A stretch of DNA of 64,000 nt from Alphaproteobacteria bacterium (GCA_009929265.1 SAAU01000004.1:1-64000), one strand, 5' to 3'. Shown: positions 24,824 through 42,408, numbered from the stretch's first letter. Numbers and translations: made by a program. Notes: generated from the letters alone by a model not told the origin.

Positions 24824-24856
24824 AAGAGCTCTTTTTTATGAAGGAGCTCTTTTTAT
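24824..24856 (+). terminator. Intrinsic terminator of glgC
   Basis: AAGAGCTC at 24824-24831 pairs with GAGCTCTT at 24844-24851, followed by TTTTATTTT. Confidence 0.85.
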
Positions 24857-24933: not shown

Positions 24934-26121
24934 ATGCAAAGAAAAAAAATTGCTGTCTTTTTTGGGGGAAAATCCTTTGAACACGATGTCAGCATTATCA
25001 CAGGAATTGATGTTGTTTTATCTCTTGATTCAACAAAATACGACCCTTTCCCGGTTTATGTTGATTTGGACGGCGTTTGGTGGACGGGACGCGCCTTACT
25101 TGACAAGAAAAACTATCATTTAACAGATGACGTCAAGAAAACCCTTTCAAAAGTTTCCCTTCATGTGGGTGAAAATTCTTTTTATTTGGAGTCAAAAGGC
25201 ACTTTTTTTAAAAAAGCTCAACAATTTCCGCTTGATTTAATTTTTCCTGCTTTTCATGGCGATTATGGCGAGGATGGAAAGTTTCAAGGCTTGTGTGAAA
25301 TGTCTGGCATTCCTTATGCCGGGGGACGCGTGTTATCTTCGGCTTTGTTTATGAATAAATCTGCAACAAAGGCTCTTTTGAAAGAAAAAGGCATTCCCGT
25401 TTTGAAAGATGAGGTTATCCAAAAACCAACCTCCTCTCTTTTTGATATTGATGTTTTGGCAAAAGAGGTTTCCCTCCCCTTTCCTTTAATTGTAAAGCCA
25501 AATACGTTAGGCAGCAGTGTCGGGGTGTTGAAAGCCGATGATATAGAAGGCTTGAAACAGGGCCTTTTAAACGTTTTTGCATTGGGAGATGACGCCCTTA
25601 TCGAACCTTTTGTTGATAATTTGGAAGAATATAATATCTCTGTGACACAAGCCTTTGGAGAAGCTCAAACCTCTGTCATTGAACGGCCTTTAAAAGATAA
25701 AAGTGCTTTCTTAGGCTTTCATGAAAAATATTTGGCCGCAGGGGGCACAAAGGGGACAAAATCCGCCTCTACAAATAAAGACGGCCTTTTGGCGTTAACC
25801 CGTGTATTTAATCCAGAGGAACTTACCAAAGAAGAAACAGCTCATATTCAAGAGTGGGCCAAAAAAGCCTTCCTTTCTCTTAATACAAAAGGGGTTGTTC
25901 GCATTGATTTTATGTGCAACAGTAAAACGCGAGAGCTCTATTTAGGCGAAGTCAACACCATTCCTGGCTCCTTTGCCTATTATTTGTGGGAAGCCTCTCA
26001 CCCTAAAAAACCTTATACAGAGCTTCTTTCTGCGTTAATTGAAGAAGGATTTAATGAAGCCAAAAAGAAGAAAAGCTTTTCTTTAAGCGCCAGTCACAGT
26101 TTAATTTTTAATCGCCCTTAA
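24934..26121 (+). CDS. D-alanine--D-alanine ligase-like ATP-grasp enzyme
   Basis: This 395-residue enzyme has the N-terminal GGKSFEHDVSIITG with the glutamate used for the first D-Ala. Further conserved blocks are FPAFHGDYGEDGKFQGLCE, KPNTLGSSVGV with the substrate-loop serines, RIDFM and the metal-binding EVNTIPGSFAYYLW. The last motif differs from the EVNTSPGMT of typical DdlA/DdlB, and the protein is longer than the usual 300-360 residues. The C-terminal substrate may therefore not be plain D-Ala; that is inference. It is first in an operon with an alpha/beta hydrolase and a membrane MurF-like ligase and lies outside any mur-fts cluster. It could be the main Ddl or a second, specialised one. 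Confidence 0.85.
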   Translation: MQRKKIAVFFGGKSFEHDVSIITGIDVVLSLDSTKYDPFPVYVDLDGVWWTGRALLDKKNYHLTDDVKKTLSKVSLHVGENSFYLESKGTFFKKAQQFPLDLIFPAFHGDYGEDGKFQGLCEMSGIPYAGGRVLSSALFMNKSATKALLKEKGIPVLKDEVIQKPTSSLFDIDVLAKEVSLPFPLIVKPNTLGSSVGVLKADDIEGLKQGLLNVFALGDDALIEPFVDNLEEYNISVTQAFGEAQTSVIERPLKDKSAFLGFHEKYLAAGGTKGTKSASTNKDGLLALTRVFNPEELTKEETAHIQEWAKKAFLSLNTKGVVRIDFMCNSKTRELYLGEVNTIPGSFAYYLWEASHPKKPYTELLSALIEEGFNEAKKKKSFSLSASHSLIFNRP

Positions 26122-26143
26122 TTCTAAAGCTTTTAAGGAAAAA

Positions 26144-26872
26144 ATGATGTATGTTCACGCTCTTCCCTCTCCTCAAAAAACAACAAAACGCCTTGTTTTT
26201 TTGCATGGATGGGACGTTTCTTCAGACACCCTTCTTCCGCTGGCCTCCCTTTTTCAAGACGAGGCAGAGGTTCTGCTTCTTGACTTACCCGGATTTGGAA
26301 AAACCCCTGCCCCTTTAAAAGTTTATGGGACAGAAGATTATGCTAAAGAAGTGGCTGATTTCATCAAAACCCTCCCTCCAAAAGATACTTTTGTTTTGGG
26401 GCATTCCTTTGGTGGGCGCGTATGCATTCAGCTGGGGGCGTTATTTCCCGACCTTATAAAAGGACTTGTCCTCATTGCAGGGGCTGGCTTGCCTTATGAT
26501 TACACCTTGGGCTTTCGGATAAAGGCCTTTTTTATAAAAACCTTAAGTAAAATTTATAAGAAAATTCCGTTTTTGCCCCCGCTTCATTTGGGAAGTGCCG
26601 ACTATCAGGCTGCCAAAGGCATTATGCGCTCGATTTTTGTTAAAACAATTAAGGAAGATTTGTCTTCAAAAGCAACACAGGTCACCCTCAACACTCTTTT
26701 AATTTATGGAAAGGAAGATACGGCGACTCCTGCCTCTTTTGGGCAAAGGTATCACCATCTTATCCCCTCTTCAAAACTTTGTTTGCTTGATTATCAAAAT
26801 CATTATACTCTTCTTTTTGAAGGCAAGCAGCAAACAGCTTTTTTTATTCGCTCTTTCTTAAATTCATTCTAA
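26144..26872 (+). CDS. Alpha/beta hydrolase in the Ddl/MurF-like module
   Basis: This 242-residue protein has an alpha/beta-hydrolase fold. It shows the oxyanion region FLHGWD, the nucleophile elbow GHSFGG with S88, an acid in LIYGKEDTATP and a histidine in NHYTLLF, so the triad looks complete. No signal peptide is present, so it should be cytosolic. The substrate is unknown. Its position between a Ddl-like ligase and a MurF-like ligase, 22 and 18 bp from each, suggests action on the same peptide or ester intermediate. AAGGAA precedes the ATG. Confidence 0.85.
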   Translation: MMYVHALPSPQKTTKRLVFLHGWDVSSDTLLPLASLFQDEAEVLLLDLPGFGKTPAPLKVYGTEDYAKEVADFIKTLPPKDTFVLGHSFGGRVCIQLGALFPDLIKGLVLIAGAGLPYDYTLGFRIKAFFIKTLSKIYKKIPFLPPLHLGSADYQAAKGIMRSIFVKTIKEDLSSKATQVTLNTLLIYGKEDTATPASFGQRYHHLIPSSKLCLLDYQNHYTLLFEGKQQTAFFIRSFLNSF

Positions 26873-26890
26873 ATAATAAGGATTTGTTTT

Positions 26891-28438
26891 ATGTCTTTTA
26901 TTGAAGTTTTTTTACTCTCCTGTTTGGTTCTTTTTTCTTTTTATAGATTAAAGTTTCTTATGCTTTTTTTCCAACAAGAAGAATACGATAACGTTCGCTT
27001 TATCAAATACGCTTTTAGGCGTTTTAAGCTGATTGATAAAAAGCTTTCCTTTATTATTTTGATTCTCTTTCCTGTGATGCTTTTGTGGAAATATGCCTCC
27101 TTACTTCTCCTTGTTTTATTTGTTCTTTTTGGAATAAAAGAATCACGCGCCCTTCAAAAAGCCAAAAAGAAATTGGTCATAACGAATCGAGTCAAACTTA
27201 TCTTTTTGGTAAGTTTTGTCTTAATTGGATTGGAGCTTTACTTCCTTCGTTTTTTACCGTTTTTATGGGAATCTTTTTTGATTATTCAAAGTTTACCCTT
27301 TATTTTACCTTTGGCAAATATGCTTCTTTTCCCTCTTCGAAAATATCGCGAGGCTCAGTTTATTTCATCAGCAAAAGCCAAACTTCAAGAGGTTAATCCA
27401 ACCATTATTGGAATAACAGGCTCCTATGGAAAAACATCTGTGAAGCATATTTTAGGGCACCTTTTGTCTTCGTTTGAAAACACGCTTTGGACAAAGGGCA
27501 GTATTAACACCGTCCTTGGTATTTGCTCTGTTTTAAACCGAGAACTTAACGCTTCTCATAAATACTTTATTTCTGAAATGGGCGCTTATAAAAAAGGATC
27601 TATTGCTCGTCTTTGCAGGTTAACCCCCCCTACAAACGGCATTATCACAGCCATTGGAACGGCGCACTATGAACGCTTTAAAACAGAACAAAGTGTGGCT
27701 GAGGCCAAGTTTGAAATGGCAGATTTTGTTGAAAAAAAGGGGGGAAAATTGATTTGCAATTTAACCCAAATCAACCCGAAATATATCCCCGAAAAGCCCT
27801 TTATTGTGCCTGTCGGCGCGGGGGGAAAATATGCCTTTGATAGCATCCAACAAACAAAAGAGGGCCTGTCTTTTCTTTTTAAAGAAGAAGGCAGCGCCCC
27901 TGTTTTGATTAAAGCGCCCCTTTTTGGCACACATCACGCAAGCAATATTTCCCTTTGCCTTGCTCTTTTGCGAGAAATGGGCTATCCGATGAGCACCTTG
28001 AAGGCGGCCCTTCATAATTTACCACAAATTACTCATCGATTGGAAGTTAAGAAACAAGGCGATATAACCTTGATTGATGACGCGTATAATTCCAATCCGA
28101 CGGGATTTAAGTCTGCTTTAGAAACCCTTAATTTATTAAAAACAATACGTTCGATTCTTGTGACGCCAGGAATGGTGGAACTTGGAAAAATTCATCAAAA
28201 AGCGCATTTAGAAGTCGGACGGGAAGCTGGAAAAACAGCGGATATTGTTTTGGCCGTTTTACCTTCAAGAATTCCTAGTTTTTGCCAAGGTGTTTTGGAA
28301 GGAAATCATGCAAAGCTCATTCAGGTCGCAAGCTTTAAAGAAGCCTATGCTTGGCTTGAAGCCCATCAACAAGCAGGCGATGTGGTTCTTTATGAAAATG
28401 ATCTTCCTGATATTTATGAAAACAAAGTCAGTCTTTAA
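26891..28438 (+). CDS. Membrane-anchored MurF-like Mur ligase
   Basis: This 515-residue protein has about five hydrophobic segments in residues 3-150. A Mur ligase core follows with the P-loop GITGSYGKTS (174-183), FISEMGAYKKG, GTAHYERF and the C-terminal DDAYNSNPTGFKSAL motif characteristic of MurF. The family normally ligates D-Ala-D-Ala to UDP-MurNAc-tripeptide and is soluble, about 450 residues, with no membrane part. The C-terminus reads LYENDLPDIY rather than the usual MurF ending. It ends the module, and its stop codon overlaps that of the convergent atpC by 4 bp. It probably acts at the inner membrane on a lipid-linked or polymeric acceptor; that is inference. Confidence 0.82.
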   Translation: MSFIEVFLLSCLVLFSFYRLKFLMLFFQQEEYDNVRFIKYAFRRFKLIDKKLSFIILILFPVMLLWKYASLLLLVLFVLFGIKESRALQKAKKKLVITNRVKLIFLVSFVLIGLELYFLRFLPFLWESFLIIQSLPFILPLANMLLFPLRKYREAQFISSAKAKLQEVNPTIIGITGSYGKTSVKHILGHLLSSFENTLWTKGSINTVLGICSVLNRELNASHKYFISEMGAYKKGSIARLCRLTPPTNGIITAIGTAHYERFKTEQSVAEAKFEMADFVEKKGGKLICNLTQINPKYIPEKPFIVPVGAGGKYAFDSIQQTKEGLSFLFKEEGSAPVLIKAPLFGTHHASNISLCLALLREMGYPMSTLKAALHNLPQITHRLEVKKQGDITLIDDAYNSNPTGFKSALETLNLLKTIRSILVTPGMVELGKIHQKAHLEVGREAGKTADIVLAVLPSRIPSFCQGVLEGNHAKLIQVASFKEAYAWLEAHQQAGDVVLYENDLPDIYENKVSL

Positions 28439-31372: not shown

Positions 31373-33148
31373 TTAAGCCTCTCCCTGTTGTTTTTTAAAT
31401 TCTTCTAACAGAGTTCCTAAAAATTTTTTCAATTTTTGAGACGTCTCATCTGAAAGGTCTTTTTCCTTTTCAAGGGCTTTATAAATAGAAACGGCCCCAA
31501 TAGGAATCCTGTCTAAAATAAAGCGTTGAAAAGGCGGCACCTCCTCAAGCGAAAGAGTTTCTAAAAACCCATTCAATCCAGCAAAAAGCAAAATAACTTG
31601 GGAAGGAAAATCCAAAACATCTTCATTTTTTTGCTTTAAGATTTCCCGCAGGCGATTGCCCTTATCGATTAACTTTTTCGAAGAATCGTCCATATGGGAT
31701 GAAAATTGCGAAAACGACATCACTTCCCAATATCTGGAAAGATCTAATCTTAACGGCGCGGACAACTTTTTCATCGCAGGAATCTGAGCCGCCCCTCCCA
31801 CACGACTGACCGAAAGCCGCACATCAACCGCGGGACGAAATCCTTTTTTAAAGAGATCAGAATCAAGGAAGATTTGACCATCTGTAATGGAAATAATATT
31901 TGTTGGAATATAGGCCGAAACGTCGTTTTCTTGTGTTTCAACAACAGGAATAGCCGTCAAAGATCCGCCTTGCTTTTCTTGACAAAGCATTGCAGCCCGT
32001 TCCAATAAACGAGAATGAATAAAGAAAATATCGCCAGGATAGGCCTCCCGTCCAGGAAACCGCCTTAACAATAAAGAAATCTCACGGTATGCCACCGCAT
32101 GCTTTGATAAATCATCATAAAAAATAACAACATGGAGCCCTTTATCCCTAAAGTATTCGGCAATCGCACAGCCTGTATAAGGGGCCAAATATTGAAGAAC
32201 TGCATTTTGAGAAGCGGACGCATTTACAACAAGGGTATAATCTAAGGCGCCTTTTTCTTCCAATGCTTTAACAAACCGCGCAACCGTTCCATTTTTTTGC
32301 CCAATGGCAACATAGATACAAAATATTTTCTCTCTATCAGAGGAGGCGTTTAAATTATTCTCTTTTTGACTTAAAATCATATCCATAATCAGAGAGGTTT
32401 TTCCCGTTTGCCTATCGCCAATAATCAATTCCCGTTGACCTCGACCAATAGGAACCAACGCATCAATCATTTTAACACCCGTTTGAAATGGAATTTGAAC
32501 ACTTGCTCTGTCAATCAAAGCCGGCGCAGGCTGCTCAATTTCAACAAAGTTGACTTCCTCCAGCATTCCTTTGCCGTCAATGGGTTTTCCTAAAGAATTC
32601 AGAACACGTCCCCACATATTGGAAGAGACAGGGGTGCGCATTACTTTATCTGTCTGATAAACAAGAGAGCCTTCTTTCAAATGATCTCCCCCACTTAGGA
32701 TAAGAGCATCTACCCCTTCTCGCGTCAGGTTAAGAACAAGCCCTTCTTGTCCTCCTTCAAACTCCAACATTTCGTTAGAGCGCACTTCCTGCATTCCCAA
32801 GATGTGGGCCACTCCATCTTTAACCGATTCAATGCGACCGATTTCAAAGACAAAAGTTTTCTGCTGATAAAAATCAACAATCTTTTTTACAAAATCTGGA
32901 AATTCGTCAATATCCACCTTATCCAAAGGATAGTTTTTAAACTGTTCTTTTAGTTTTTTTAATTTTTCTTTTAACGATAAATCAATTAAAGTCGATTCAA
33001 ATTGAATCACAAGGCCGCCTAAAAGACTTTCATCAATTTGAACACGAAGAGAAACTTCTTTTTCTTTCGTCAAAAAAGAAAGTTTTTCTTTTAATCTTTC
33101 TTCTTCAGTTTTTGAAAGTGGATGAAACGTTCTAATAAGAGCCTGCAT
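31373..33148 (-). CDS. atpA: F1 ATP synthase subunit alpha with an N-terminal delta-like domain
   Basis: At 591 residues it is about 80 longer than a normal alpha subunit. Residues from about 85 align with a standard alpha: TFVFEIGRIESVKDGVAHI, Walker A GDRQTGKTS at 244-252, and VSRVGGAAQIPAMKK near the C-terminal domain. Residues 1-72 do not belong to alpha. They match the C-terminal domain of delta (AtpH/OSCP): an initial LIRTFHPLS strand, then VSLRVQIDESLLGGLVIQF and STLIDLSLKEKLKKL, corresponding to the delta pattern 'vDpsLiGGlvirvGd..iDgSvr.rL'. No atpH precedes it; the next gene upstream is divergent after 158 bp. AGGGGGG precedes the ATG. The fusion is the striking feature of this operon. 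Confidence 0.92.
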   Translation of the reverse strand: MQALIRTFHPLSKTEEERLKEKLSFLTKEKEVSLRVQIDESLLGGLVIQFESTLIDLSLKEKLKKLKEQFKNYPLDKVDIDEFPDFVKKIVDFYQQKTFVFEIGRIESVKDGVAHILGMQEVRSNEMLEFEGGQEGLVLNLTREGVDALILSGGDHLKEGSLVYQTDKVMRTPVSSNMWGRVLNSLGKPIDGKGMLEEVNFVEIEQPAPALIDRASVQIPFQTGVKMIDALVPIGRGQRELIIGDRQTGKTSLIMDMILSQKENNLNASSDREKIFCIYVAIGQKNGTVARFVKALEEKGALDYTLVVNASASQNAVLQYLAPYTGCAIAEYFRDKGLHVVIFYDDLSKHAVAYREISLLLRRFPGREAYPGDIFFIHSRLLERAAMLCQEKQGGSLTAIPVVETQENDVSAYIPTNIISITDGQIFLDSDLFKKGFRPAVDVRLSVSRVGGAAQIPAMKKLSAPLRLDLSRYWEVMSFSQFSSHMDDSSKKLIDKGNRLREILKQKNEDVLDFPSQVILLFAGLNGFLETLSLEEVPPFQRFILDRIPIGAVSIYKALEKEKDLSDETSQKLKKFLGTLLEEFKKQQGEA

Positions 33149-36143: not shown

Positions 36144-37259
36144 TTAGCAAAGATGTTCTTCGTCTTTTTTCCCTAAAAGGTAATTTTCTAGCACGTCTTT
36201 ATGGGAAAGCGAAAACTCCTTTACAAAATCAATGAAGCCTTTATAGCCCCGACATTCTGTATCAGAGGGCAACACAATCCCCTCTTGAGGAGCAATCGGA
36301 CAAGCGCCCTTACACCAAGAATTATAGGGACACGTCCAGCATTTTTTCGTTTCATTTTTCAAATGTTGCCGTAAAATCCACCCCAAACGCCTTGGCGCAT
36401 TTTCAAAGACAGAAAATCCGTCTGAAACATTGGCATAGGGCGTTTCATAGGAAGCCCTATTCGGGCAAAGAAACACCTCCCCCTTTGGCGTGATTGTGAT
36501 AAGCTTTGCTTGACAATTCCCTCCATAAACCCCGGAGGACGTTTGATAAAGAACGCCTTTTATAACATCTGCAAAAATCCGCACAAACAAACGATACCCT
36601 TTTGTTTCAAAAAGGCTCATCACTTTTAAAAACATCTCTTTTAAAAAGGCGGCATATTCTTCATTTGTTGGCATTAAAACTAAATCCCGCTTTCCCACAT
36701 CAATATAGCGTTCAAATTGAACAAAATAAACTTCATGGGCTAAAAACGCCTCTATCATCTCATCTATCTTTTTCAAATCCGCTTTACAAGGGACGCATGT
36801 CATGGCCGCCTCTATTCCATAGGCCTTAAGATCGTCCCATTTTTTCCAAAATTTTTCTTGATATTTTTGATTGGAGCCTTGAATTGTCCTTAAGGTAAAG
36901 TCCAAACTGACTCCTAAAGAATGCGGCATATTTTCTTTTATAAAAGGGAGGTATTCTTCCTTTAAGGGAAGAAGAGAGGTTTGCATAGATTGCGAAAAAT
37001 CCCCCAAAGTTTCTTTCAAAAGAGGGATGGCCTTTTCGTAAAACGAAAGCGGGCTCATCAAAGGTTCGCCCCCATGCCAAATAATTGTTATCTTTTCCTC
37101 TTTTCCAAAAGAGCTTGCGTAAGCTTTAAGAAAACGGGCGGTTTGTCTTAAAACCTCCTCTGACATCACTTCTTTTTTTGCACGAATTTCCTCGGGTAAA
37201 TAGCAATGCTCACACCCAACAGAGCAAAAATACGAAGGAATTAAATATACGCCGACCAT
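36144..37259 (-). CDS. Radical SAM/SPASM enzyme (sulfatase-maturase-like), copy 1
   Basis: This 371-residue protein has the radical SAM motif CSVGCEHC near residue 12 and the following WHGGEPL. A C-terminal SPASM domain shows cysteines in GNCQAK, FLCPNR, CWTCPYNSWCKGACP and TECRG, enough for two auxiliary Fe-S clusters. The layout resembles anaerobic sulfatase-maturating enzymes and peptide-modifying SPASM enzymes. It overlaps the upstream radical SAM gene by 19 bp, so the two are translated together. No sulfatase and no obvious precursor peptide is encoded nearby, so the substrate is unknown. Reliance on radical SAM chemistry fits a low-oxygen lifestyle. Confidence 0.88.
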   Translation of the reverse strand: MVGVYLIPSYFCSVGCEHCYLPEEIRAKKEVMSEEVLRQTARFLKAYASSFGKEEKITIIWHGGEPLMSPLSFYEKAIPLLKETLGDFSQSMQTSLLPLKEEYLPFIKENMPHSLGVSLDFTLRTIQGSNQKYQEKFWKKWDDLKAYGIEAAMTCVPCKADLKKIDEMIEAFLAHEVYFVQFERYIDVGKRDLVLMPTNEEYAAFLKEMFLKVMSLFETKGYRLFVRIFADVIKGVLYQTSSGVYGGNCQAKLITITPKGEVFLCPNRASYETPYANVSDGFSVFENAPRRLGWILRQHLKNETKKCWTCPYNSWCKGACPIAPQEGIVLPSDTECRGYKGFIDFVKEFSLSHKDVLENYLLGKKDEEHLC

Positions 37260-38359
37260 ATCTCTTGTTCCTTTTCTTGTTCAACAACCGTTTCGTTTTC
37301 AAGCGCCTTTTTTAAATGCGTAAAGACCTTTTTCCAACTTTCGCAGTAGAAGGTGGATTCATAAAGATCCTTGCCATACAAAATCGCATCACGCGCGCAT
37401 CCGCCATGACAAATAGGGAAAAATTCGCACGAACGACACTTGGGGTCAATATGAATACGAGCGCGTTTAAGGGCCCTTGCTTGCTCTGAATTAAATAATT
37501 GCTCCACCGAATCAGTATTTAGATTCCCAAAGCGGTATTTATCCTCATTCGTATCAGAAAACGTGCAGCAATTAAAGACACTGCCATCGGCTTCAATTCC
37601 CATAAAGTGGCCAAAACACGAGCGCGTCCACGGGCATTGAATGGAACGAATATCAGGATGCGCCAACAGTTGCAACATTTGAATTTGGGGAAAAATTTGA
37701 AAAGACGTGGAGCTTTCAGCCCATTTATCAAACGTTTCTATCAGAAGATTGGCATAATTTTCAGGGCTCATCATCACCCCTTCATCTTTTGCCCGTCCCG
37801 CAGGATACCGATAGTTAAACCGTAAAGAGGGGGCATGTTGCCCCAAAGAAATGGCAAAGTCCATCATCTTTAAATGCAACCCTTGTTGATACATTTCATC
37901 ATCATAGGTCCCAATGATGGATAACCGAAATCCATCTTGATGCATTAAAGACATTTTTTCCAAAAATAAAGCCGTATAAGCCTCAGCCGACCCTCGATAA
38001 AGCCGGCCTTTCATATCAGGATCAAAACTTGTCGCAAGCGCCCCGCCTGTAATTTGCATTAACAAATCTTTCCAAGTTTTATCGTAAAGCAACAGATTAC
38101 TTTGGAAAGAAATCCGTAATTTAGGAAGTTTTTTCATCATATAGGCATAGGTTTTTTCGTAAAATTGAACCCCCATCATCAAAGGTTCCCCCCCATGCCA
38201 AATCCAAGTGGCATTTGGACTTAAATGTGGATAAAGTTTATCAAAATAAAATTTAAACTGATCAAAACTCCACTTTCCCTTTGCCGAAAGAGCTGCCCCA
38301 CAATAAGAACAGTTGGCATTACAGGTTTTTGTTGGCTTTGCAATTACAACGTCTATCAT
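37241..38359 (-). CDS. Radical SAM/SPASM enzyme (sulfatase-maturase-like), copy 2
   Basis: This 372-residue protein has the radical SAM motif CNANCSYC near residue 13, followed by WIWHGGEPLMMG. The SPASM domain has cysteines in QCPWTRSC, FNCCTF, CRSCEFFPICHGGCARD and FYCESW. The sequence is clearly related to, but distinct from, the downstream partner (CHGGCARD against CKGACP). It is first in the two-gene operon, with AAGGAG before the ATG. It is divergent from two surface-protein genes across a 207-bp gap, in which I found no short ORF with a convincing ribosome binding site. Confidence 0.88.
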   Translation of the reverse strand: MIDVVIAKPTKTCNANCSYCGAALSAKGKWSFDQFKFYFDKLYPHLSPNATWIWHGGEPLMMGVQFYEKTYAYMMKKLPKLRISFQSNLLLYDKTWKDLLMQITGGALATSFDPDMKGRLYRGSAEAYTALFLEKMSLMHQDGFRLSIIGTYDDEMYQQGLHLKMMDFAISLGQHAPSLRFNYRYPAGRAKDEGVMMSPENYANLLIETFDKWAESSTSFQIFPQIQMLQLLAHPDIRSIQCPWTRSCFGHFMGIEADGSVFNCCTFSDTNEDKYRFGNLNTDSVEQLFNSEQARALKRARIHIDPKCRSCEFFPICHGGCARDAILYGKDLYESTFYCESWKKVFTHLKKALENETVVEQEKEQEIWSAYI

Positions 38360-39726: not shown

Positions 39727-42408
39727 ATGTTCTTAAAAGATAAACATTCCAATCAAAAAGGGGCTTTAATGCTTGAAGCGATTGCCGTTTTGGGCTTAAT
39801 GGCACTTATTTCCCCTATGTTATATCGGCAAATTTCAGATAGAAATCATGAAATTGATGATGTGACAAAGGCCTCTATTATGCGTTCTATCCGAGATGGA
39901 TTAAATGCGTATATTCAGGCCAATGAACTTGATATTAAAATCGCTTTAGGGATTGCCGATTCTAGCGGAAATGTGACCAGTTCAGGATCTTCTGCCACAA
40001 ATGCAGCACCCGTTGCAAAGAAATATTCGGATTTAACCGCAGATCAAAAAAGCAATCTTTTGGCAACAATGCCTCCTGGAATTGACGCGTCTGTTTTTGG
40101 AGATTCTGCCGATTATAACATCCAATTTTTGGGCTATAGTGTTCCGGGTGGAATTTTATATAGTGACGGCATTGCAAAAGATGCTCCTCGTCGTCCTGTT
40201 GTGACGGCCATGCTTATTTCCAATACAGATGTTGACTCTCAAAGACGAGCCGCTCGGGTGGCTTCTCTTATCGGGGCTGATGGTGGAATTGTGACAACAA
40301 AAGCAACCGAAACAAATCAAAAAGCTTACGGGACCTTAGGATCTTGGGAAATGACATTGGGATCTGGAATTACCGCGCCTGCAAACTCTGTTGTGGCCTT
40401 GGCCGCTTATGATACGACAGGGAAAAATGTTTTGAACCGATTAACAACAGATTTGGATGCCGATGGGAACAGCATTATCAATGCGAAGCTTCTTCAAGGC
40501 GATACGGTTCAAGCCAAAGAAAAATTCTGTTTAGGCGAGGATTGTGACGCCCCTGACGCTAGTATGACAGACAAAACCATCGTCTTAGGGGGAGGTACAT
40601 TTGCCGAAAAAGACGCAACCGACGGCATGGTTATCCATGTGGATTACATCAAACCTTATACCGTTGGAAAGGCCTTAACTGTTGCCCAAAAAACGACCTT
40701 CAACTCTTCTGTGACCATGAAAAAAGATTTGGAAATTGAGGGCGGATTAAGTGTTAAGAAAGGGGCAAAAGTTGCCGAAGATGCTCAAATAAGTAAAAAG
40801 CTTTTCGTCGGGACAGATTTAACTGACGGCAGCTTGTATTCGGCTAAAATCTATGGCGACAGTCTTCGGATTGGTTCCAGAACAGCTGAGGTCGGCGAAA
40901 CTGGGGTGACAGGATGTATTACAGTTGCCTCCTCAACCTTGGGGGTTGAAAATTTAGCCAGTCAATCTGTTGCTAAAATCAGTGATGTTGAAACCACAGG
41001 AAACTGTATCCCTTATTTTGAAGTGACAAGCACGGGAATTACAGCTTATAAACCTGTGACTATTAAATCTAAATTAGAGGTGACAGAAAACACTTTTTTA
41101 AGAAAAGATGCGTACGTTGATGACGCGCTTTACGCTGAAAAACGACTCGTTGTTGGCGGATTAAACCGAACAGCAACATCGACAACAGAAACGCCTCTTT
41201 TAACAACCAATAATTTGCCTTTAGCTGATTCTAATTATCCAGCAGCCAGTTCTTATAATATGAATAAAGCCAAAGTTGTTGTGGAAGACGGCGATGTTTA
41301 CTTGAAAAATGGACGTATCATGACAGGGGTTGCCGTCCCTAATCAAAGTAAAGTTTCAAATGCTTTTACCACAATGGATGGCAATGAAACCAAATATTAT
41401 CAGGTTGATCCGGCCTATACCTCTGTTATGAATGATATTCGGTTAACCTCCAGAGGGGGCGCACGATTAAGTCAGATTTTACCAAACTATATCAGTAAGG
41501 GGATGTATTATTTAACCAACAGTTATTATAAAGGAAGTTGGCCTTGCACGACAGGAACCTGTCCAAACTATCCGTTCCCGCTTTACGACAACACGTATAC
41601 AATTGTGTCCGGAACTTATTCAAACTATCCCGATAATACAGTCCCAGATACGTGTGCAACAAAGGCGTGCGTTTCCCACCCTTACATGGGGCGTGTCCCA
41701 GCTCCAGGACAAGGAACAGCTTCATCTGAAGGGAAATGCCCTCCGGGATATGCGCCTTTGATTACCTTGCTTCCAACAGCCTTTGAAATGTCAAAGATTT
41801 CCCATTTGATGATTCCAACGTCCCACACCCATGATCTTCAAATTGATCTTGTGACAGACTCTCAAGGAAACGTGATTGGGGCAACAGGGTCAACAACAAA
41901 TCCACGAACCTCTTCTGGGGAATCCGTTTTATTAAGATATGATGGTGATAAGTTGGTGCCTTATGATCCAACAACAACGGCCGAGGACACAACCCAAATT
42001 GGATACAACTTAATCGATTCCAATAGAACCTTTGCCAACAATAAAGGAACAGGTGAGTCCATTGCCATTCAAGAGACGAGCAGCCAAACAGGGGCTTTAA
42101 TCAACAGTAAAATGATTGGGCAGACAGATAATTGGCTCGTCACCTTGTTAAAACCTTATGAATCTCTTGGAGTCACGCAATACTGGGATGTGGCGATGGG
42201 ATTGATTAGCCGGGTTTATTCCGGAACAAGCGCTTCTTATGTTTGGAATCCGCAAGGGGTCGCCCCAAACACAATGACGTTGTTTGCACAAACCTATTGC
42301 GTCTTTGACCCATCAGCGTTTAACTTCCAAAATTCAACAACTTCTGGGAGCTTCCCAATTCCTCAAGTCAGAACGCCAAGTGGAACAGCGGCTAATCCTT
42401 CTTTCTAG
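39727..42408 (+). CDS. Type IV prepilin-like (PilV-like) large surface fibre protein
   Basis: This 893-residue protein starts with a class III leader, KG|ALMLEAIAVLGLMALISP: G12 before the cleavage site, the conserved E5 of the mature chain and a hydrophobic stem. This is the signature processed by prepilin peptidase. The stem and following ISPMLYRQISDRNHE resemble PilV-type minor pilins with large bodies. The body has two similar segments near residues 320-362 and 440-478, built on VT-KK-LE/VTIKSKLEV followed by a run ending in KLFVG or RLVVGG, like phage tail-fibre repeats. The C-terminal third is cysteine-containing and has HTHDLQ. Adhesive function is inferred. No shufflon recombinase is present. 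Confidence 0.78.
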   Translation: MFLKDKHSNQKGALMLEAIAVLGLMALISPMLYRQISDRNHEIDDVTKASIMRSIRDGLNAYIQANELDIKIALGIADSSGNVTSSGSSATNAAPVAKKYSDLTADQKSNLLATMPPGIDASVFGDSADYNIQFLGYSVPGGILYSDGIAKDAPRRPVVTAMLISNTDVDSQRRAARVASLIGADGGIVTTKATETNQKAYGTLGSWEMTLGSGITAPANSVVALAAYDTTGKNVLNRLTTDLDADGNSIINAKLLQGDTVQAKEKFCLGEDCDAPDASMTDKTIVLGGGTFAEKDATDGMVIHVDYIKPYTVGKALTVAQKTTFNSSVTMKKDLEIEGGLSVKKGAKVAEDAQISKKLFVGTDLTDGSLYSAKIYGDSLRIGSRTAEVGETGVTGCITVASSTLGVENLASQSVAKISDVETTGNCIPYFEVTSTGITAYKPVTIKSKLEVTENTFLRKDAYVDDALYAEKRLVVGGLNRTATSTTETPLLTTNNLPLADSNYPAASSYNMNKAKVVVEDGDVYLKNGRIMTGVAVPNQSKVSNAFTTMDGNETKYYQVDPAYTSVMNDIRLTSRGGARLSQILPNYISKGMYYLTNSYYKGSWPCTTGTCPNYPFPLYDNTYTIVSGTYSNYPDNTVPDTCATKACVSHPYMGRVPAPGQGTASSEGKCPPGYAPLITLLPTAFEMSKISHLMIPTSHTHDLQIDLVTDSQGNVIGATGSTTNPRTSSGESVLLRYDGDKLVPYDPTTTAEDTTQIGYNLIDSNRTFANNKGTGESIAIQETSSQTGALINSKMIGQTDNWLVTLLKPYESLGVTQYWDVAMGLISRVYSGTSASYVWNPQGVAPNTMTLFAQTYCVFDPSAFNFQNSTTSGSFPIPQVRTPSGTAANPSF

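Follow-up and report, generated by a model that had tools for sequence, protein, structure and literature searches.

A membrane-embedded MurF-type ligase, linked to a Ddl-type ligase and a hydrolase, as the probable replacement of canonical ddl and murF in an alphaproteobacterium

The window, by which we mean the whole 64,000-nucleotide stretch of DNA analysed here, lies on contig C47 of a 1.24 Mb alphaproteobacterial genome that is estimated to be 100% complete with 3.7% contamination. Between glgC on one side and the atp genes on the other, it encodes a module of three genes, the features of which are as follows.

24824-24851: terminator-like hairpin between glgC and ddl
24934..26121, plus strand: Ddl-type ATP-grasp ligase, 395 aa (PF01820, 101.9 bits; PF07478, 96.5 bits)
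25948..25989, plus strand: Ddl motif EVNTIPGSFAYYLW, in which the catalytic E339, N341 and G345 are kept and the position of DdlB Ser281 is Tyr350
26144..26872, plus strand: alpha/beta hydrolase, 242 aa, cytosolic (PF00561, 79.8 bits; AlphaFold pLDDT 96.6)
26891..28438, plus strand: membrane-embedded MurF, 515 aa (PF08245, 100 bits, with PF02875; AlphaFold, Foldseek)
26891..27400, plus strand: N-terminal membrane domain of the MurF, residues 1-170, five predicted transmembrane helices
26972..26986, plus strand: Q28-x-x-x-Y32 (FQQxxY), cytosolic and nearly invariant in an alignment of 53 homologues
27164..27190, plus strand: basic cytosolic motif K92...T98-x-R100 (KKPLVxTxRxKR), from the same alignment
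27416..27439, plus strand: P-loop TGSYGKTS, residues 176-183, from the alignment
27707..27709, plus strand: K273, equivalent to the carbamylated Lys202 of E. coli MurF, invariant in 53 of 53
28394..28411, plus strand: ENDLPD, residues 502-507, which replaces the canonical KGS(R) motif in the alignment

All three ORFs are intact at these coordinates, with the Pfam domains Dala_Dala_lig_N and Dala_Dala_lig_C in the Ddl, Abhydrolase_1 in the hydrolase, and, both above cut-off, Mur_ligase_M and Mur_ligase_C in the MurF. The intergenic gaps are only 22 and 18 bp, in agreement with the tight spacing described in an earlier note on this DNA. The glgC gene precedes the module, and the module and the atp genes meet tail to tail. 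A shared promoter for the three genes, also part of the earlier note, is plausible but was not borne out, promoter-like matches being at chance level (8 found, 7.8 expected).

Do the three genes belong together? Scanning named genomes gave 80 membrane MurF loci labelled as at least eight phyla (Pseudomonadota, Cyanobacteriota, Chlamydiota, Bacteroidota, Chloroflexota, Bacillota, Omnitrophota and Balneolota), where phyla are assigned by record titles and some MAG labels may be misbins; most of the genomes compared are MAGs. The hydrolase and the Ddl both adjoin the membrane MurF in 62 of the 66 loci with enough flanking sequence, which upholds the view of the trio as a functional module. The gene order hydrolase-MurF-Ddl is the commonest (53 loci), followed by an arrangement with a divergent Ddl (10 loci). 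This conserved synteny, together with the intact ORFs, rules out a fragment or misassembly. The module lies outside any mur-fts cluster in the source genome, as had been claimed, but this does not hold for about ten relatives, in which it is found within or adjoining dcw/mur clusters. In Alphaproteobacteria, for example, it lies between murB-murC and ftsA-ftsZ; in Obscuribacterales it adjoins murC-murB, and elsewhere murG-ftsW or murE. No description of a membrane MurF or of murF/ddl loss turned up in the open-access papers that we searched.

What kind of enzyme is the MurF-like protein? The AlphaFold model, built with 53 homologues (pLDDT 94.7, pTM 0.90), predicts with high confidence five transmembrane helices at residues 3-29, 50-65, 69-90, 99-121 and 124 to about 150, as well as an amphipathic helix at residues 34-45. 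The fifth helix is long (124-168), leaving the membrane to enter the central domain. The hydropathy profile agrees with five helices, matching the five hydrophobic segments that had been noticed earlier, and hydropathy and charge together indicate that the ligase domains are cytosolic, as are the loops 30-49 and 91-98. Within the cytosolic loops, Q28, Y32, K92, T98 and R100 are nearly invariant among the 53 homologues. The helices stand in the place of the UDP-MurNAc-binding domain, which is absent from 53 of 53 sequences with no substitute nucleotide domain visible; the protein is therefore a MurF-type ligase and not a canonical MurF.

With canonical MurF (PDB 1gg4 and 4qf5; TIGR01143) the protein nevertheless shares its central and C-terminal ligase domains and its catalytic residues. 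The P-loop and the equivalents of MurF K111, N136, E158, H188, K202, R316, N334 and E363 are invariant in all 53 sequences, the one from the window included, and the best Foldseek matches to the model are MurF crystal structures. Similarly, in a tree of the ligase domains the membrane MurF (0.995) and canonical MurF (0.868) are each monophyletic and are deep sister clades, the two forming a joint clade (0.991) with MurE outside. Apart from its membrane domain and its linkage to a Ddl and a hydrolase, it differs from canonical MurF in having TPGM for GDM and, at the C-terminus that the earlier note had correctly called non-canonical, END(LPD) in place of the K-x-S carried by 31 of 31 canonical MurFs. 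It misses the curated TIGR01143 cut-off of 288.6 bits, scoring 214.0 bits over profile positions 64-402 only.

The earlier note proposed synthesis of a modified dipeptide or depsipeptide, which would make the module an accessory pathway. A PF07478 search of the genome detected no second Ddl, the sole other match being a biotin carboxylase, and a PF08245 search detected no second MurF, the other matches being MurE, MurC, MurD and an Mpl-like protein. Likewise, the dcw cluster on contig C40 (mraZ-rsmH-ftsI-murE-mraY-ftsW-murG-murC-murB-ftsQ-ftsA-ftsZ) passes from murE to mraY without a murF and from murB to ftsQ without a ddl. An accessory or secondary pathway in the host genome is thus ruled out; the absence of any other ddl or murF, which the earlier note had itself named as the genomic half of what would count against it, is what the genome presents. 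Alanine racemase, two S11 D,D-carboxypeptidases and FtsI, which a D-Ala-D-Ala pathway needs, are also encoded.

The membrane MurF is present in few relatives of the same class. In a sample of 124 class genomes (at least 90% complete, mostly one per family) it occurs in six (G000, G014, G092, G099, G150 and G152), which represent six families. Five of them are devoid of an intact canonical MurF, compared with 3 of the 118 others (Fisher p=1.5e-6, with shared ancestry not modelled); G150 alone among the six has one, as do 115 of the 118. The only Ddl in G000, G014, G099, G150 and G152 is of the module type. In module genomes the dcw clusters run from murE to mraY with no murF. Moreover, the membrane MurF is the only MurF found in seven isolate genomes from three phyla: Blastochloris sulfoviridis, Actibacterium atlanticum, Chamaesiphon polymorphus, Pseudalkalibacillus decolorationis, two Butyrivibrio strains and Bacterium 1xD42-87. 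Replacement is not universal, since about 10 of 48 module genomes keep an intact canonical MurF. Some apparent canonical MurF matches in Firmicutes turned out on checking to be MurE.

Of the evidence that the membrane MurF has taken over the function of MurF, the dead canonical copies in module genomes are the strongest. A MurE-MurF fusion occurs in some Alphaproteobacteria. No membrane MurF was detected by the class search in G142, G125 and G090, and the MurF half of their fusions retains the catalytic residues, with only minor changes elsewhere. Three other fusions, all in module genomes, carry a dead MurF half:

L159:10910-13993, minus strand: MurE fused to dead MurF in G001, catalytic residues lost
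L206:397-2670, minus strand: MurE fused to dead MurF in G022, P-loop and C-terminal domain lost
L205:654 onward, an 803-aa ORF: MurE fused to dead MurF in G092, P-loop and C-terminal domain lost

In G001 the losses comprise N136, H188, K202, R316, D330 and N334, and this copy, although intact at first sight, is catalytically dead. Judging from these sequences, canonical MurF catalysis appears to come under weaker selection once the module is present. We propose that the module represents an alternative system for adding D-Ala-D-Ala, which has very probably replaced canonical ddl and murF in the host, the catalytic core and the replacement both being supported by sequence and comparative genomics; this confidence is attached to the replacement, and the acceptor and the hydrolase are graded separately below. 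Across phyla, the textbook ddl and murF enzymes appear to have been replaced by the module repeatedly.

What does the module Ddl make? It has the ATP-grasp ligase domains of canonical Ddl (E. coli DdlB, S. aureus Ddl 2i87; NF002528, TIGR01205) and the equivalents of Glu15, Lys215, Tyr216, Arg255, Asn272 and Gly276. In an alignment of 28 module Ddls with E. coli DdlB, the window's E16, K265-Y266, R323 and N341, equivalent to Glu15, Lys215-Tyr216, Arg255 and Asn272, are conserved, and the Lys215-Tyr216 pair is invariant in module Ddls. Unlike canonical Ddl, the aligned module Ddls have Tyr or Phe at the position of Ser281, which in E. coli DdlB contacts the carboxylate of the second D-Ala, and a motif end of the FYLWE type; the altered motif EVNTIPGSFAYYLW, pointed out in the earlier note, is real and family-wide. 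Many also differ in a Gly/Lys-rich omega-loop or tail, and the window copy scores below the curated cut-offs. The Gly/Lys-rich segments are omega-loop insertions in the alphaproteobacterial module Ddls and C-terminal tails, e.g., LSGAKGVKK, in those of Firmicutes and Bacteroidota (L078, L079, L082, L101 and others). A vancomycin-type resistance ligase is rejected as a reading, as the curated Van-type NCBIfam models all score far below cut-off (for example, VanG at 162 of 495 bits).

Because the changes in Ddl (at Ser281) and in MurF (at the KGS motif) both lie near the presumed binding place of the incoming substrate, a different second residue may be conceivable. However, nine relatives combine an intact canonical MurF with only a module-type Ddl (G043, G044, G048, G050, G059, G063, G071, G077 and G150), so the product of this Ddl must be usable by canonical MurF. 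From this pairing we strongly infer ordinary D-Ala-D-Ala as the most likely product.

The best reading of these data places the module in peptidoglycan synthesis, as an alternative core system located at the membrane. The Ddl would make D-Ala-D-Ala, and the membrane MurF would join it to the stem tripeptide by acyl-phosphate ligase chemistry on the cytoplasmic side of the membrane. For addition to the stem tripeptide the evidence is indirect, consisting of the replacement pattern and the dead canonical copies.

To what is the tripeptide attached? The same replacement would be served if the acceptor were UDP-MurNAc-tripeptide and the membrane domain only a tether beside MraY, a reading that falls just short of an even chance and competes with a lipid-linked acceptor, not with the replacement claim. 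While the catalytic core is that of an unchanged MurF, canonical Mur ligases use UDP substrates and both MurF forms occur in some genomes, this reading must accommodate the absence of the UDP-MurNAc-binding domain, and of any visible substitute, from all 53 sequences. Furthermore, the near-invariance of Q28, Y32, K92, T98 and R100 suggests more than a tether, namely that the membrane domain has a binding function, perhaps for the pyrophosphate of a lipid-linked substrate. A lipid-linked acceptor would be compatible with the missing UDP-binding domain and the nearly invariant basic motifs. We tentatively propose, as a possibility somewhat on the doubtful side of even, that the membrane MurF acts after MraY and adds D-Ala-D-Ala to lipid I- or lipid II-tripeptide by means of a lipid- or pyrophosphate-binding membrane domain. 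The earlier note was right that the MurF is membrane-anchored, and the membrane-linked acceptor that it suggested is plausible.

In some lineages, the UDP-binding domain of the dead, MurE-fused MurF could present the tripeptide to the membrane MurF core as part of a split enzyme. The dead halves in G001, G022 and G092 do keep the domain-1 residues D30, R/K32, G37 and F/Y40 while having lost catalytic residues, but the host and many module-only genomes contain no such remnant, so a split enzyme would not be general and we consider it unlikely. Less probable still is the earlier note's modified dipeptide or depsipeptide, whether destined for an alternative stem terminus or for a surface polymer: the changes of Ser281 to Tyr/Phe and of KGS to END and the almost constant presence of the hydrolase would fit it, yet it conflicts with the module holding the genome's only Ddl and MurF, with the replacement and dead MurF copies in relatives, with the invariant Lys215-Tyr216 pair and the lack of any Van-type model at cut-off, and with the nine relatives in which the Ddl product must serve canonical MurF.

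The hydrolase has the fold and the Ser-Asp-His triad of the alpha/beta hydrolase superfamily. Its triad, which the earlier note had recognized as complete, is S88-D192-H220 and is invariant in 43 of 43 homologues, and a GSxDY motif in the cap is conserved as well. No equivalog model scores above cut-off, and Foldseek with the hydrolase model returns generic esterases and lipases only, which does not narrow the function. Its almost unfailing presence beside the Ddl and MurF genes points to a function in the same step as theirs; as a low-confidence guess, the hydrolase might clear mis-ligated or aberrant ester or peptide products of Ddl or MurF.

Textbooks treat MurF and Ddl as essential, and both are antibiotic targets; they are presumed to be soluble enzymes that act ahead of the membrane steps. 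Many bacteria of several phyla, among them Lachnospiraceae-type gut Firmicutes, Blastochloris and one Bacillaceae species, appear to rely instead on a membrane-embedded MurF without a UDP-substrate domain, nearly always encoded beside a hydrolase. Consequently, inhibitors modelled on the structure of canonical MurF may not fit the enzymes of such bacteria. The order of precursor assembly becomes directly testable; if the lipid-linked acceptor is correct, a broad set of bacteria would assemble the peptidoglycan precursor in a non-textbook order. A precedent of a kind is provided by MurG, the lipid II synthase, for which an alternative enzyme is reported to be able to stand in (PMC8092295). That case resembles the present one as an alternative form of a supposedly universal precursor enzyme and differs in concerning another step and another enzyme family.

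Finally, we note several additional features of the host and its relatives. The host MurE on contig C40 (L008:14172-15536, minus strand; 454 aa) is without the UDP-substrate domain at its N-terminus: its match to TIGR01085 begins only at position 66, and its P-loop is at residue 44. MurE is full-length in eight other module-bearing alphaproteobacteria, unlike the host, in which both MurE and MurF are thus without domain 1. Low-position P-loops in several other MurE ORFs are mostly an artefact of locus edges. The MurE-dead MurF fusions of G001, G022 and G092, having kept a UDP-binding domain, could be pseudoenzymes with a scaffold or regulatory role. Within the window, the ATP synthase alpha ORF (31373-33148, minus strand) starts with the C-terminal part of delta/OSCP (PF00213 positions 104-171) and is an apparent delta-alpha fusion, and 36144-38359 (minus strand) encodes two neighbouring radical SAM/SPASM-type proteins that are possibly peptide-modifying. 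Long prepilin-like proteins without a Pfam match are encoded in the window (39727-42408, plus strand) and at L043:7695-9842 and L162:12355-14175, and N-termini resembling theirs occur directly beside the module and beside mraY in G022.
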